Of a stretch of 42,075 nucleotides of DNA, positions 5,507 through 42,075 are shown piece after piece. Below the pieces are notes generated by a model. That model saw only the letters and a list, made by a program, of their open reading frames with translations. It was not told where the DNA came from and did not search any database. The translations under genes were made by a program, and so were the position numbers. The DNA comes from Akkermansia muciniphila (GTDB taxonomy: Bacteria; Verrucomicrobiota; Verrucomicrobiia; Verrucomicrobiales; Akkermansiaceae): contig CAMDAD010000027.1 of NCBI GenBank assembly GCA_945888515.1, forward strand, positions 1 to 42,075. Direction: 5' to 3'. How positions within the stretch are numbered: the first letter of the stretch is position 1; each line of letters begins with the position of its first letter.

Positions 5507-6949
5507 ATGAGGCTCACGCGCATTACTCTCTTGCTGATCACTGTGGTGATCTCAGTGGGGTTTTATCAATTGACCCAATTTCTGTTAGATGATGTCGAAC
5601 CACAAATCCTCCAGGCGACCGAGGAAGTGATGGTGGATGCCGCGCATGTGTTTTCAGAACTCGTTTCGCAGGAAATGAAAGAGGGCGCGCTCGACAAAGA
5701 ACGGTTACGGGACATTTTCCATCGCGCCCACGAGCACGAGTTTCAAGCGCAAATCTTCGCTTTACAGAAACAACAAGTCGGGTTGAATTTGTATGTTACC
5801 GATCAAAACGGCATCGTAATTTTCGACAGCGATGGCGGTCGGCGCGAGGGCCAGGACTATACTAGCAAACGCGATGTGCGGCTTACTCTGGACGGGCAAT
5901 ACGGGGCACGCAGTACGCGCGAAGCGGAGGAGGATTCCACCACATCGATCATGTATGTGGGCGCTCCCCTCGGTACGCGCGATGCGCCGCGCGGGGTGGT
6001 TACTGTATTCAAAAAACAAGCGGACGCCCTGCCCATGATCGCCGAACGGCGCGCTGTCATCATCCGTGCCATTATCAGCATCGGCATCGGTATTTTGTTG
6101 CTGATCGCCGCCGTGTTCTGGTGGGTCTATCAACCGATCGGCATACTCACCGACTATGCGCGCGCCGTGGAAAAAGGCCAGCGCCCGCCCAAGCCAAAAC
6201 TAGGAGCCGGCCGCGAGGTGAACGCGCTTTACCACGCGCTCGAAACGATGCGCGAGGCGCTGGAGGGCAAGCGCTATGCTGAGCACTACACGCAGACTTT
6301 AACGCACGAAATGAAAAGTCCGCTGGCGGCGATTCGCGGCGCGGCGGAATTGTTAGACGAGGAAATGCCGGAGCCGCAGAGAAGACGTTTCCTTGAAAAC
6401 ATCCGCGCGGAGAGTTCGCGGGCAGAGCGTTTGATTTCTCGGTTGCTGGAACTTGCAATGGTGGAGAGCCGCGCGCATCTCGATGCTACCGAGGCGATCG
6501 ACTTCGTTTCGTTAGTCCAAGGGGTGGTCGAGGAAGAACGTCCCACCGCCGAAAATGCCCGCGTGATTTTACAAGTCAGCGCGCCTGAGGCCGGCGTGAC
6601 GGTCAGTGGCGATCGCTTCATCTTGCGTGCCGCCGTGGCGAATTTATTAGAAAATGCGTTAGAGTTTTCCCCTGCGGATGCTGTCTTGCAGATTTCCGTG
6701 GAGCTCGAAAAGCAAGAGGTAATGCTTCACATCGATGACCAAGGCCCCGGCGTGCCAGAGTATGCGTTGGGAAAAGTGTTCGAACGCTTCTATTCCCTAC
6801 GCCACCATCACAGCGGTCGCAAAGGCACTGGCCTGGGCCTGAATCTCGTCAAAGAAGCTGCGGAACTTCATCACGGCAGCATCACCCTAACGAACCGCGA
6901 GGGTGGTGGTGCCAGAGCGAGCTTACGACTGCCGTGTCCCTCTCTGTAG
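5507..6949 (+). CDS. creC: Sensor histidine kinase, CreC-like
   Basis: A 480-residue inner-membrane sensor kinase. It has an N-terminal transmembrane segment (about 5-25), a periplasmic sensor domain with the CreC-characteristic stretch GQDYTSKRDVRLTL followed by DGQYGARST (about 115-137), and a second membrane segment (about 184-206). A HAMP-like linker leads to the HisKA phospho-acceptor His267 (LTHEMKSPLAAIRGAAE). The HATPase domain shows NLLENALEF (N box), DDQGPGVP (G1) and GTGLGLNLV (G2). The sensor-region match to E. coli CreC is recalled from the known protein rather than computed. The gene is in an operon with creB. Its 3' end overlaps the convergent DUF2891 gene by 27 bases. Confidence 0.85.
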   Translation: MRLTRITLLLITVVISVGFYQLTQFLLDDVEPQILQATEEVMVDAAHVFSELVSQEMKEGALDKERLRDIFHRAHEHEFQAQIFALQKQQVGLNLYVTDQNGIVIFDSDGGRREGQDYTSKRDVRLTLDGQYGARSTREAEEDSTTSIMYVGAPLGTRDAPRGVVTVFKKQADALPMIAERRAVIIRAIISIGIGILLLIAAVFWWVYQPIGILTDYARAVEKGQRPPKPKLGAGREVNALYHALETMREALEGKRYAEHYTQTLTHEMKSPLAAIRGAAELLDEEMPEPQRRRFLENIRAESSRAERLISRLLELAMVESRAHLDATEAIDFVSLVQGVVEEERPTAENARVILQVSAPEAGVTVSGDRFILRAAVANLLENALEFSPADAVLQISVELEKQEVMLHIDDQGPGVPEYALGKVFERFYSLRHHHSGRKGTGLGLNLVKEAAELHHGSITLTNREGGGARASLRLPCPSL

Positions 6950-8059
6950 GCCCACATCTGTTAGAAGATACACTGCGAAGGACGCCAACCAGTGCTCGCC
7001 CTCGTAATGGCCGCTGGAAACATGTTTCAGACCAGCCTCAGTATGTGCGGCGGCACTGCGCTGCAAGATATCGCGTCGCGGGTCATTTTCTGTGAGATTT
7101 TCCGCGATGCCTCTCATCGTCCAAGCCCGCGTGAGATTCAGTCCGGCGAGGTGAATCAGGTGCCCATCGCTCGGGTCGCTGACTTCCGCTGGCGTGAGCA
7201 AATTTCCTAATCGACCTTTGCCCAGATCCGGAAAATAGGCACTCAGCCATGAGGAAAATTCCTCGCGACCCAGCACCCGCCGCATCAGGTCGGCTACGTT
7301 GAGACCTGGAGAAAAAAAGTCGTTGCCCGATGGCTCGTAGTTCACTGGATAGTTTACATCACTCTCATAGAAAGCCCGCGCTTTTTCGCGGATCAGCTTC
7401 GCCAGTGGCTCGTCTTTCGTGAGATCTGCCCAGTCGAGAAATTGCGCTAGCGGAAAGGATGTTTCTGGATGAAAGCCGCAGCGCACCGGCCAATCGAGTT
7501 TCGGCAGGAAGTTCTTCATCAAGGTGACCAATTGCGTTTCGAGTGGTTGCATATACTGCGCCCAGCGCCGCGCATCCGCGTCTTCCCAGGTGCGTAGTTC
7601 GATCCCTAGTCGCATCACCCAGGCCCAGCCATACATGCGCTCAAAGCCGTAATTTTCCTTGATCGTGAAATGCGCCGCCTCCGCCGCGAGAGCATCCTGC
7701 GTGAAGCGTTTGTCGATGATGTCACGCACATCCTTTGCCCACGGAGCTTGCGGATGCAATCGCAGCAAACGCACCAACATCCAGTGCCCGTGTACTGAGG
7801 AATGCCAATCGAAGTGCCCGTAAAACACTGGATGCTTTGCACGCGGCACCACGATGTCAGACGCATCGCGCAGGACGTTGCCGGGTTTGTAAGGATACTC
7901 GCGATCGATCCCAGCCAATGCCATGGTGACAAAAGTTTCTGCTTGTTCCGCTCTCACGCCGACACTGTTAGCCATCAACATTCCAGTGGCAAGCGTGATC
8001 GCGCACACGCATTTTCCTAACGATTTGAAAGTCATTGCCGAAACTATCATGATACTCAC
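6923..8059 (-). CDS. DUF2891 family exported protein
   Basis: The product matches the DUF2891 family: it starts with a run of Ala/His-rich helices, including HPVFYGHFDWHSSVHGHW (about 96-113) and YGWAWVMRL. The family is predicted to form an alpha/alpha-toroid-like fold, and its activity is unknown. The conserved His/Trp/Asp cluster GHFDWHSSVHGHW suggests a catalytic or sugar-binding pocket, which is inference. A signal peptide is visible if translation begins at the third Met (about 8035), cleaved near VRA/EQ; Mets at 8059 and 8050 are alternatives. The 3' end overlaps convergent creC by 27 bases. No partner gene is evident. Confidence 0.75.
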   Translation of the reverse strand: MSIMIVSAMTFKSLGKCVCAITLATGMLMANSVGVRAEQAETFVTMALAGIDREYPYKPGNVLRDASDIVVPRAKHPVFYGHFDWHSSVHGHWMLVRLLRLHPQAPWAKDVRDIIDKRFTQDALAAEAAHFTIKENYGFERMYGWAWVMRLGIELRTWEDADARRWAQYMQPLETQLVTLMKNFLPKLDWPVRCGFHPETSFPLAQFLDWADLTKDEPLAKLIREKARAFYESDVNYPVNYEPSGNDFFSPGLNVADLMRRVLGREEFSSWLSAYFPDLGKGRLGNLLTPAEVSDPSDGHLIHLAGLNLTRAWTMRGIAENLTENDPRRDILQRSAAAHTEAGLKHVSSGHYEGEHWLASFAVYLLTDVGLQRGTRQS

Positions 8060-39531: not shown

Positions 39532-40398
39532 TCATTTTTTTCGAGTCAGCCAATGGCCGAGGAAACGCCCGAGCATGACTCCAGCGATGATTGGTAGTGG
39601 CAGCAAATACATGTAGTCCCCTTGATACTTGAAGAATAAAACGATGGTGACGATCACACCAACAAAAAAGCCGAGTACGATTCCGATGAATGTACCAAGA
39701 AATTGAGCCGGGCGGAAGGTGTTTTCCAGCGTCAACGAGCGCAGTGGCGACTCGTAAGCCGTGTTAGTAAACACTTCTAGAAAACCATTGGCGATGTTCA
39801 ATAAGCCTTCTCGTTCGCTGCCCTTGAGAATGGTGTGACTTAAGTCTGCTCTAATGACCCGTGTTTCCGGAGCCTCAATCGTCAGATAGCCGTCATGAAC
39901 CTTGATGCTACCAGTGACGGCTGTGGCCAAGAAGCGTAGTACACTGGGTTTGAGAATGGAAGCAACATCCGCGAGTCGGGGGACAAGATGTGGTGCGGAT
40001 TTGATCGATGCCTCAAGAGCCTTCCGAGCACCGCCGCCGAAGATGCTGTAGTTTTTCTTAAACGCATCGACCATCGCTCGTTCATCCGGTGATGCGTTGG
40101 GAGCCAGATTCAGATCCAAGCCTTTGACACCAAGCAAATTCATACCTGCCGTTTCACGACGCGGCAGAAGTTCGAAATTCGGCAATCGGAGGACCTCGAG
40201 GGGAATCACCGCGATTGTTCGCCAGTAATAGTAATATCCATCGCTACCGCCACGCTCAGTCCTAAGATCATACGTCTCAAACGCCCTATTCCGATAGGTT
40301 CCGCGCACATGATCCAAGCGATCTTCGGCTTCTCCAGGGTGATACTCATAGCCGTTTTGCTGAGCCCATTCGGCGTTTTCTGGTTGATGTGTGTGCAT
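39532..40398 (-). CDS. Membrane protein of unknown function
   Basis: A 288-residue protein starting MHTHQPENAEWAQQNGYEYH (40398); the longer frame upstream lies in the sigma-factor gene. I do not recognise a family. It has a soluble N-terminal region of about 220 residues, including RTIAVIPLEVLRLPNFELLPRR, and two C-terminal transmembrane helices (about 232-258, GTFIGIVLGFFVGVIVTIVLFF; and about 265-281, LLPLPIIAGVMLG) with a short basic tail. It starts four bases after the stop of the sigma-like gene, so it is translationally coupled. Like the DUF3592 gene upstream it begins Met-His-x-His. Confidence 0.65.
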   Translation of the reverse strand: MHTHQPENAEWAQQNGYEYHPGEAEDRLDHVRGTYRNRAFETYDLRTERGGSDGYYYYWRTIAVIPLEVLRLPNFELLPRRETAGMNLLGVKGLDLNLAPNASPDERAMVDAFKKNYSIFGGGARKALEASIKSAPHLVPRLADVASILKPSVLRFLATAVTGSIKVHDGYLTIEAPETRVIRADLSHTILKGSEREGLLNIANGFLEVFTNTAYESPLRSLTLENTFRPAQFLGTFIGIVLGFFVGVIVTIVLFFKYQGDYMYLLPLPIIAGVMLGRFLGHWLTRKK

Positions 40399-40402
40399 GG
40401 AT

Positions 40403-40520
40403 TTATTTGATTTGTGCTTCGAAGGTGCCCACGACAAAACTTCTTTTCTCATCGGACAAACGTAGGTGGATCTTGCCGGGGATTTTACCATGCATTGCGG
40501 TGCCAAATTCCAGCTTCATG
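40403..40520 (-). repeat. Duplicated C-terminal domain, copy A (fused to the sigma factor)
   Basis: This 118-nt segment encodes the last 39 residues plus stop of the chimeric sigma protein (SMKLEFG to TFEAQIK). It aligns without gaps to copy B at 41492-41609. The two copies are separated by 1089 bases. Both are followed on the minus strand by a gene that starts Met-His. Confidence 0.85.
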
Positions 40521-40939
40521 GAAAAATCTCCCAAGTATGTGAACTCGGCTTCAAGACGAGCGAGCGCTTCATGCACATCCAACAGTTGATCATCGTCCAT
40601 CGGTGCGGCAACAGGCAGCTCGTCGTCGAGAGGGATATTTTCTTCGCCTCCGCCGCGCTTGGCGGCCAGCCTGCGCCGCGCCGCATCGACGAGGATGCGG
40701 CGCATCGTCTCGGCGGCAGCGGCGTAGAATTGCTTGCGATCGCGCCACTGGTCAGGTGCGGATTTTTCCAACCGTAACCATGCCTCGTGGAGCAGACCGC
40801 AGGTGTCTAGCGTCCCGCCCTGGCGTTCCATGGACATTTTTGATCGTGCGATCCGGCGCAACTCTGCATATAATTCGGCAAACACCTCATTGTCGCGGGT
40901 TTGGTCAGCGTTGTTCAGCCAGCGGGTGTATTCAGGCAT
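40403..40939 (-). CDS. Chimeric ECF sigma factor: region 2 kept, region 4 replaced
   Basis: The first 130 residues are an ECF sigma factor of the TIGR02999/ECF_X6 kind: LYAELRRIARSKM and TLDTCGLLHEAWLRLEK, then FYAAAAETMRRILVDAARRR (about 71-90), and DVHEALARLEAE (about 121-132). In normal members this last helix leads straight into region 4 with its helix-turn-helix (usually DPRxAxxVxLRYFxG). Here it is followed, in frame, by FTYLGDFSMKLEFGTA and the remainder of a small beta-rich domain that ends FVVGTFEAQIK. The final 39 residues match the C-terminus of the protein at 41492-41836 at 30 of 39 positions. Total length (178) is near normal. Without region 4 it probably cannot recognise -35 elements. 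Confidence 0.85.
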   Translation of the reverse strand: MPEYTRWLNNADQTRDNEVFAELYAELRRIARSKMSMERQGGTLDTCGLLHEAWLRLEKSAPDQWRDRKQFYAAAAETMRRILVDAARRRLAAKRGGGEENIPLDDELPVAAPMDDDQLLDVHEALARLEAEFTYLGDFSMKLEFGTAMHGKIPGKIHLRLSDEKRSFVVGTFEAQIK

Positions 40940-40943
40940 AACC

Positions 40944-41471
40944 TTATCTGATTTGCGCGGTCTTTGCGGTGGCCATGTAAAACATCATCGATAAACCGAT
41001 AACGAGTCCCATCAACCCCAATGCCATCGCCAGCCAGGACAAGCCGATTCCCTTGATCAACACGCACTGATGAGGAGACATCGGATCGTAATACACCTGC
41101 ACTGCCTTGCCCGGAGAGTATAGTAGCTGCTCATCATTGGCCGATGCCCGAGAATCGTGGGACTCATTGCCATATCGCAGCCTGTCACTTTCAAACATCT
41201 GACCATTCACTTCGTAGGAGTAGCGGACATGGACTGTGTATTTCCTGTCGAAACCACGAGATCTACGACGTCCGGAAGAACCAGAGACTTTCCTTTCGAC
41301 GATTTTCGATTCGACGATTCTCCCCTCTGCTGCTGGCCAGTCATTCGTTTTCAGGCCCTGCTGGAGTTGGAATCCCCCAATCATCAGGAAGAGGAGGCCC
41401 AGAAAGGTGAAGCTTCCGCCAAAAATCCATTTGACTACTGTTTGCAGTTGGCCTGAAGAGTGTCTGTGCAT
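40944..41471 (-). CDS. DUF3592 domain membrane protein
   Basis: A 175-residue protein starting MHRHSSGQLQTVVKWIFGGS. It has two transmembrane helices (about 14-33, FGGSFTFLGLLFLMIGGF; and about 142-165, LSWLAMALGLMGLVIGLSMMFY) flanking a soluble domain with the DUF3592 pattern: WPAAEGRIVESKIVERKV, YTVHVRYSYEVNGQMFESDRLRYG, and YSPGKAVQVYYDPMSPHQCVL. The family is widespread, and its function is unknown. Its stop is four bases before the chimeric sigma gene, and its start is 20 bases after the upstream gene, so all lie in one transcription unit. Confidence 0.85.
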   Translation of the reverse strand: MHRHSSGQLQTVVKWIFGGSFTFLGLLFLMIGGFQLQQGLKTNDWPAAEGRIVESKIVERKVSGSSGRRRSRGFDRKYTVHVRYSYEVNGQMFESDRLRYGNESHDSRASANDEQLLYSPGKAVQVYYDPMSPHQCVLIKGIGLSWLAMALGLMGLVIGLSMMFYMATAKTAQIR

Positions 41472-41491
41472 GTAGATCTTGATTGAACAGG

Positions 41492-41609
41492 CTATTTGAT
41501 CTCCGCTTCAAAGGTGCCGATGACAAAGCTACCCTCATCGTCCGGCAGGCGCAGGTGGATCATGCCTGGGATTTTCCCATCCTTGGCGGTGCCGAATTCT
41601 AGTTTCATG
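41492..41609 (-). repeat. Duplicated C-terminal domain, copy B
   Basis: A 118-nt segment homologous to 40403-40520, encoding SMKLEFGTAKDGKIPGMIHL through TFEAEIK and the stop. Thirty of 39 residues are identical to copy A. Confidence 0.85.
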
Positions 41610-41836
41610 CTGTAGCCATTGAGGAAAGTAGTAGGCACGGCAAAATCTTCGCCCTCTTTCCTGTAACTCAAGACAGCCGATAGTCCACTGTGATCTTGAC
41701 CTGGCTTCATCGAGAATTTTTTGCCATCTACCTTATCCTTGAATCCAAAGATCGAGAATTCCCGATCATCTTTGTTAGGCTCAGCACCACTCTGCCATAA
41801 AGTCAATTCACCGTCACTGAAAGTGGCTTTCTCCAC
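41492..41836 (-). CDS. Small beta-rich protein of unknown function, possibly 5'-truncated
   Basis: At least 114 residues are readable from a GTG at 41836 to the stop at 41492. The sequence (EKATFSDGELTLWQSG, FSIFGFKDKVDGKKFSMKPG, FLNGYSMKLEFGTAKDGKIP, SFVIGTFEAEIK) looks like a beta-sandwich domain of about 140 residues seen in Verrucomicrobiota and relatives. Protein-like sequence continues upstream of the GTG in the same frame (HEVIPDKPANGKIKGEDFIV, to about 41895). Beyond that it becomes non-protein-like until an in-frame stop at 42020-42022, with no ATG. So the true start may be lost, or the gene's 5' part may be broken by a frameshift. Its last 39 residues are the source-like copy of the tail fused to the sigma factor. 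Confidence 0.6.
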   Translation of the reverse strand: MEKATFSDGELTLWQSGAEPNKDDREFSIFGFKDKVDGKKFSMKPGQDHSGLSAVLSYRKEGEDFAVPTTFLNGYSMKLEFGTAKDGKIPGMIHLRLPDDEGSFVIGTFEAEIK

Positions 41837-41899
41837 GATGAAATCTTCGCCTTTGATTTTTCCGTTCGCAGGCTTGTCGGGAATAACTTCGTGTTTGCT

Positions 41900-42075
41900 G
41901 AAAAAGTATCTTTTACGCTGCGCAGTATGCTGCGGGCGGCATGTGCCATTTCGATAAGAACCGGGATGTGTGATCTTTTGTTCGCTGATTGTTGAGTCGT
42001 GGAAGCTCCAGCGTGATGATCAGTCTACCAATCAGAGCACAAAGCTGTCTCAGTAGGTGGTCAAGGTTCATGACT
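41900..42075. other. Right-edge sequence without a clear gene
   Basis: The last 175 bases hold no convincing gene. A minus-strand frame from ATG at 42071 runs 52 codons (MNLDHLLRQLCALIGRL and so on) to a stop, overlapping the region upstream of the beta-rich protein in another frame. It resembles no family I know. It may be part of a broken element beyond the edge. Confidence 0.3.

Follow-up and report, generated by a model that had tools for sequence, protein, structure and literature searches.

Composition of the fused frame and its neighborhood

The window, i.e., the whole stretch of 42,075 bases analyzed here, corresponds to bases 1-42075 of contig C27 in a 3.36-Mb genome that was assembled in 54 contigs and is 97.5% complete. 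On its minus strand a single frame can be read without a stop from an ATG at 40939 to a stop codon at 40403, giving a protein of 178 aa, and this frame lies among the following features:

39532..40398, minus strand: gene for a 288-aa protein, the downstream neighbor in the window and in the intact loci of relatives
40403..40939, minus strand: fused open reading frame of 178 aa, very probably a deletion scar
40403..40540, minus strand: last 45 codons and stop codon of a deleted Ser/Thr kinase gene, assigned by collinearity with genomes G004, G005, and G008
40540..40541, minus strand: deletion junction with a one-base overlap (C), at which 2223 bp of the intact operon are missing
40544..40939, minus strand: kept 5' part of the sigma gene, codons 1-132, sigma2 domain and linker (PF07638, TIGR02999, and identity to orthologues)
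40944..41471, minus strand: DUF3592 gene of 175 aa (PF12158, 4.8e-15), the upstream neighbor in the window and in the intact loci
41492..41890, minus strand: 3' remnant of a beta-domain paralogue with its 5' side cut off, delimited by homology to G005
41891..42075, no strand assigned: end of a multicopy repeat at the contig break, with copies elsewhere in the genome

In accordance with the original prediction that residues 1-132 constitute a TIGR02999-type ECF sigma factor, both family profiles matched residues 9-131 of the fused protein. PF07638 covered only these residues (profile positions 12-135 of 185, E value 2e-28) with 100 bits as compared to a cut-off of 21.1, which is sufficient for recognition of the sigma2 domain, whereas the TIGR02999 match (1.1e-35) reached 123.1 bits and thus fell slightly below the curated cut-off of 126.15 that applies to the whole protein. 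No match to region 4 or a sigma4 helix-turn-helix was obtained with the fused protein, although the intact orthologue P0002 is matched by PF07638 over residues 9-180 and by Sigma70_r4_2 over residues 136-174, and the proposed absence of a helix-turn-helix for -35 recognition was thereby borne out. The last 45-46 residues resemble the C-termini of beta-domain proteins encoded elsewhere in the genome and the genus; within the own genome the tail shows 74% identity to the C34 beta protein and 70% to the cut-off gene upstream in the window.

The beta protein family itself (L048:1028-1996; L050:5504-6475 and 6537-7448) yielded no confident Pfam match in these two loci. Its members carry an apparent signal peptide and, as a weak structural model suggests, may have a two-part beta-rich architecture; two copies stand in tandem in L050, and the C-terminal part of the L048 and L050 proteins also forms the end of the Ser/Thr kinase encoded next to them (L048:4487-5305). 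Upstream of the DUF3592 gene, homology to the G005 locus, in which the corresponding protein is whole (303 aa, L050), ends at 41890. The repeat that follows recurs six times elsewhere in the genome as copies of 147-188 bases with 98-100% identity, none of which lies more than 50 bases from a contig end; two copies reach the position equivalent to 42075 and the other four stop at 42037. The open frame of this repeat had no Pfam match, and the repeat may be transposon-like.

Organization of the intact operon in relatives

The intact locus was found in three of the ten genomes of the genus, the window's own counted, namely in G004, G005, and G008, and in the order beta-domain protein, DUF3592 protein, 186-aa sigma factor, 727-aa kinase, and 288-aa protein. 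The sigma orthologues are full length (186 aa) in all three and share 84-87% identity with the fused protein over residues 1-147 and 90-93% over residues 1-133. The alternative that homologues normally end in the beta domain was checked with these orthologues, all three of which end in a normal region 4, as confirmed by the profile match in P0002, the one tested for it. Only a 15-base gap separates the sigma gene from the gene of the 727-aa Ser/Thr kinase, for which a Pkinase match of 2.5e-43 was obtained with the G008 protein as the one kinase tested. This kinase is probably membrane-bound, with a hydrophobic segment read by eye at approximately residues 400-430. The downstream 288-aa protein of the window shows 88% identity to its counterpart in G004 and 50% to that in G005; the comparison with G008, which spans residues 1-238, gives 89%.

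The sigma orthologue group (L048:2549-3109 and its orthologues) carries the motif DTCG, whereas the other relatives carry QATA-like motifs in a list that, like the set of 22 sigma relatives used below, was selected by its match to an LVHEA-type sequence pattern and is biased accordingly. The usual phosphothreonine position is a Cys in the DTCG group, although a kinase gene adjoins.

Junction and origin of the tail

BLASTN comparison of the window with the intact loci gave two aligned pieces that meet at window position 40541, with break points at 2947/5170 in G008, 1550/3773 in G004, and 5640/7864 in the reversed locus of G005, so that the same 2223 bp (741 codons) are absent relative to each of the three. 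The junction at 40541/40540 coincides with that expected near position 40540 from the frame alone. Since the intact sigma and kinase genes are read in one phase and the lost 2223 bp are a multiple of three, no stop arose. In G004 and G008 the second aligned piece reaches on into the 288-aa gene, and in G005 it ends where the kinase gene ends.

The tail is identical to the kinase C-terminus at the level of 87% in G008 and 74% in both G004 and G005, as compared to 63-80% for non-kinase paralogues (best 80% in G004 and 76% in G005); identity alone thus singles out the kinase as the donor in G008 only, since the paralogues of G004 and G005 are as close or closer. It is the collinearity of the alignment across the tail that points to the deleted downstream kinase. 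The tail had originally been described as belonging to an unrelated beta-rich family, which holds, and as taken from the family member encoded upstream, which does not: that paralogue was rejected as donor because the alignment to G004 and G008 does not stop at the tail but extends into the 288-aa gene, and because its identity of 70% compares with 87% for the G008 kinase.

When the missing segment (2222 bases of G008 DNA) was compared with the own genome, it matched weakly at only three places, over 125, 61, and 36 bases, one of them in the C34 beta gene and the other two probably at kinase motifs; no further copy of the missing 2.2 kb was thus detected in this assembly, which is 97.5% complete, and at the level of the assembly the deletion is real. 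Repeat-mediated recombination at the junction was considered and rejected, as the overlap is one base and the 60 bases before each G008 break share at most five bases. A short imperfect inverted repeat, terminator-like by scan, spans the junction at 40531-40548 on the minus strand. No sigma-70-type site was obtained when 40300-42075 was scanned for promoters.

The same locus in other genomes of the genus

The same junction was absent among the listed matches in the other nine genomes of the genus and in the other 56 relatives. In G002 and G006 the DUF3592 gene and the 288-aa gene are kept, and the sigma gene is preserved only to about codon 23, where, through a deletion larger than that of the window, the remnant runs out of frame into the final ten or so kinase codons; in G006 the sigma start codon is moreover ATA. 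In G003 the 288-aa gene stands directly behind a beta-domain protein and a sigma orthologue was not found, and in G001, G007, and G009 the 288-aa gene had no match. Judged by the 288-aa gene, the locus is therefore present in seven of the ten genomes, three of which keep the sigma-kinase pair; since completeness of the ten genomes ranges from 82 to 98%, an absence may reflect an assembly gap.

With two types of junction, at least two deletions must have occurred. As the deletion in G002 and G006 spans that of the window, it may represent a nested second deletion or an independent one, and the two trees compared disagree: in the rpoB tree (first 638 codons) G002 groups with G004 and G008, and the window's genome (G000) with G009, whereas in the 288-aa gene tree G000 groups with G002 and G006. 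The rpoB search gave no match in G003 and G006. Over the 638 rpoB codons G009 is the nearest among the relatives compared (90.3%) yet lacks the locus, while G008 shows 81.3% rpoB identity to the window's genome but carries the locus with a DNA identity of 83-89%. Its distribution is patchy, and the locus may move between species.

Another in-frame internal deletion was noticed in G006 (L042:3932-4147) and G002 (L043:3340-3555), in which a 71-aa frame leads directly from an apparent signal peptide to the last approximately 48 residues of the same beta domain as in the tail; it ends near the start of the window tail.

Sequence constraint and predicted structure

In the three-branch estimate, omega of the sigma part on the window branch was 0.106 (bootstrap 0.036-0.231), as compared to 0.033 for G008 and 0.080 for G004. 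For the tail it was 0.40 (bootstrap 0.057-3.5 from 913 of 1000 resamples), with 0.060 for G008 and 0.484 for the G004 kinase, and hence no higher than on the G004 branch. The sigma part contains neither stops nor frameshifts and is constrained on average. These values would fit a deletion of fairly recent date, after which constraint on the tail was perhaps relaxed, and are not decisive either way.

Seven residues of the sigma part are unlike all three orthologues, mostly at variable positions. Asp127 is replaced by Ala in the fused protein, in a column that holds Asp or Glu in 17 of the 22 pattern-selected relatives, and the linker residue Thr103 of the orthologues is Pro in the window, as it is in six of these 22. 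Two tail positions stand out from 14 other distinct tails: one is His in the window but Asp in 13 of the others and Glu in the remaining one, and the other is Ser in the window but otherwise Pro (13 tails) or Leu (one tail). This tail set was found by a pattern that leaves both positions free.

AlphaFold2 models of the fused protein and of the kinase C-terminal part, built from shallow alignments of 10 and 7 rows, respectively, had mean pLDDT values of 47.1 and 56.8. The weak model of the fused protein shows helices up to residue 132 and three strands between residues 139 and 176, with blocks in the strand region at pLDDT 55-72. A PDB sequence search returned nothing below E 0.14.

Discussion

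Taken together, these results indicate that the frame at 40403..40939 is very probably the scar of one in-frame deletion in an ECF sigma-Ser/Thr kinase operon, and that the gene is probably decaying and without useful function. Through the loss of 2223 bp, which the comparison shows, sigma codon 132/133 came to be followed by the final 45 kinase codons; the product, if made, would comprise a sigma2 domain, the linker, and a fragment of a broken sensor domain. It would be unable to recognize -35 elements and would be without its kinase. Most likely, the fused frame is without sigma function, having no -35 domain, no kinase, and a fragment only of the beta domain. Of the fates originally proposed, that of a dead relic is thus favored, as decay of the ECF-kinase operon is supported by the deletion in the window as compared to three intact relatives, by the different deletion in G002 and G006, and by the neighboring paralogue upstream that is cut off. 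Against a relic it counts that the sigma part, free of stops and frameshifts, is under constraint on average, which fits a recent deletion as well as a retained function, that omega of the tail is no higher than on the G004 kinase branch, and that the reading frame was preserved across the deletion, for which the chance is one in three.

An alternative view is that the fused protein is a retained regulator, in which sigma2 binds core RNA polymerase and, without sigma4, acts as a decoy or anti-activator. In line with this view are not only the open and constrained sigma part but also the seven differences from the orthologues, which fall mostly at variable positions, and the presence in the genome of five other, weaker PF07638 matches (22-44 bits, above the cut-off), so that other ECF-like factors would be available for competition; the fused protein gave no match to these five proteins at E 0.001. 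Nevertheless, we consider a retained regulator very unlikely. The junction does not recur among the matches listed for the other genomes of the genus and the further relatives. Moreover, by analogy to ECF43, in which the charge of sigma2.2 is provided by the neighboring kinase according to the excerpts of PMC8999054 and PMC13147305, the protein would depend on a kinase that is deleted here. This argument is limited by the fact that DTCG of the orthologue group keeps one Asp and that the T51A variant of EcfK from X. citri still works, linker sites mattering too (PMC13147305, in excerpt). The exchange of Thr103 in the linker for Pro also argues against retention, despite the occurrence of Pro in six of the 22 relatives. 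It appears highly improbable that the deletion gave rise to a retained, kinase-independent sigma2-only protein with a three-strand beta cap that binds core and damps other ECF sigma factors; if true, a regulator would have been born in one step from a sigma-kinase operon.

It might also be argued that the population has the intact operon and that the short join was made by the assembler or by a mixture of strains, since the assembly consists of 54 contigs and, 1.5 kb away from the junction, the contig breaks off in a repeat that was not resolved. The chance of such an artefact seems slim, because the junction overlap is one base only, which makes repeat-mediated misjoining unlikely, the longest exact match between the tail and either of the two other copies found in the own genome is 19 bases, the missing 2.2 kb is found in no contig, and the window tail differs from the three kinase tails compared. 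A split sigma factor, in which the sigma2 fragment cooperates with a sigma4 protein encoded by a gene of its own, as in the SigO-RsoA pair of B. subtilis (PMC8103513, in excerpt), is hardly credible: comparison of the lost sigma4 part with the own genome gave no match at E 0.1 in a search without a positive control, and the junction is that of a deletion and not of a gene split. The reading as a deletion scar is preferred.

If so, the frame could be annotated as an ECF sigma factor although it is without -35 recognition, and the decaying locus would otherwise matter little. The intact loci are of modest use, as they offer a sigma-kinase pair with the unusual DTCG motif, a kinase C-terminal domain that is common to neighboring proteins, and, in a single genus, two or more distinct deletions. 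A sigma-kinase deletion fusion of this kind was not found among the entries listed in a literature search covering titles and the beginnings of abstracts.

Fusion pseudogenes that arise by deletion across adjacent genes are a known general kind. The frame in the window resembles them in its collinear flanks, lost middle, and fused frame, and in the occurrence of another, larger deletion in relatives, and it differs in that the frame was kept by chance and reads as one protein. With SigO-RsoA it has in common a sigma2 part without sigma4; however, the frame in the window arose by deletion, and a sigma4 partner was not found in what was a weak search without a control.

Among characterized kinase-linked ECF groups, the nearest and best studied is ECF43. 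In this group, the acidic motif of sigma2.2, which makes contact with the beta' subunit, is replaced, activity requires phosphorylation by the neighboring kinase, and core binding is tied to this phosphorylation, as described in the excerpts of PMC8999054 and PMC13147305. EcfP-PknT of Vibrio parahaemolyticus and EcfK-PknS of Xanthomonas citri are like the intact relatives analyzed here in that a sigma gene is followed by a Ser/Thr kinase gene, that the kinase combines a hydrophobic segment with a sensor-like part at its C-terminus, and that DAED of sigma2.2 is replaced, here by DTCG. The ECF43 consensus is QTTA, with Thr at the third motif position in 88% of members (PMC13147305, in excerpt), whereas in DTCG of the window and the three orthologues the third position is Cys and the Thr stands one position earlier. 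Contrary to ECF43, the window has lost the kinase and region 4, and only the last 45 kinase codons are left.
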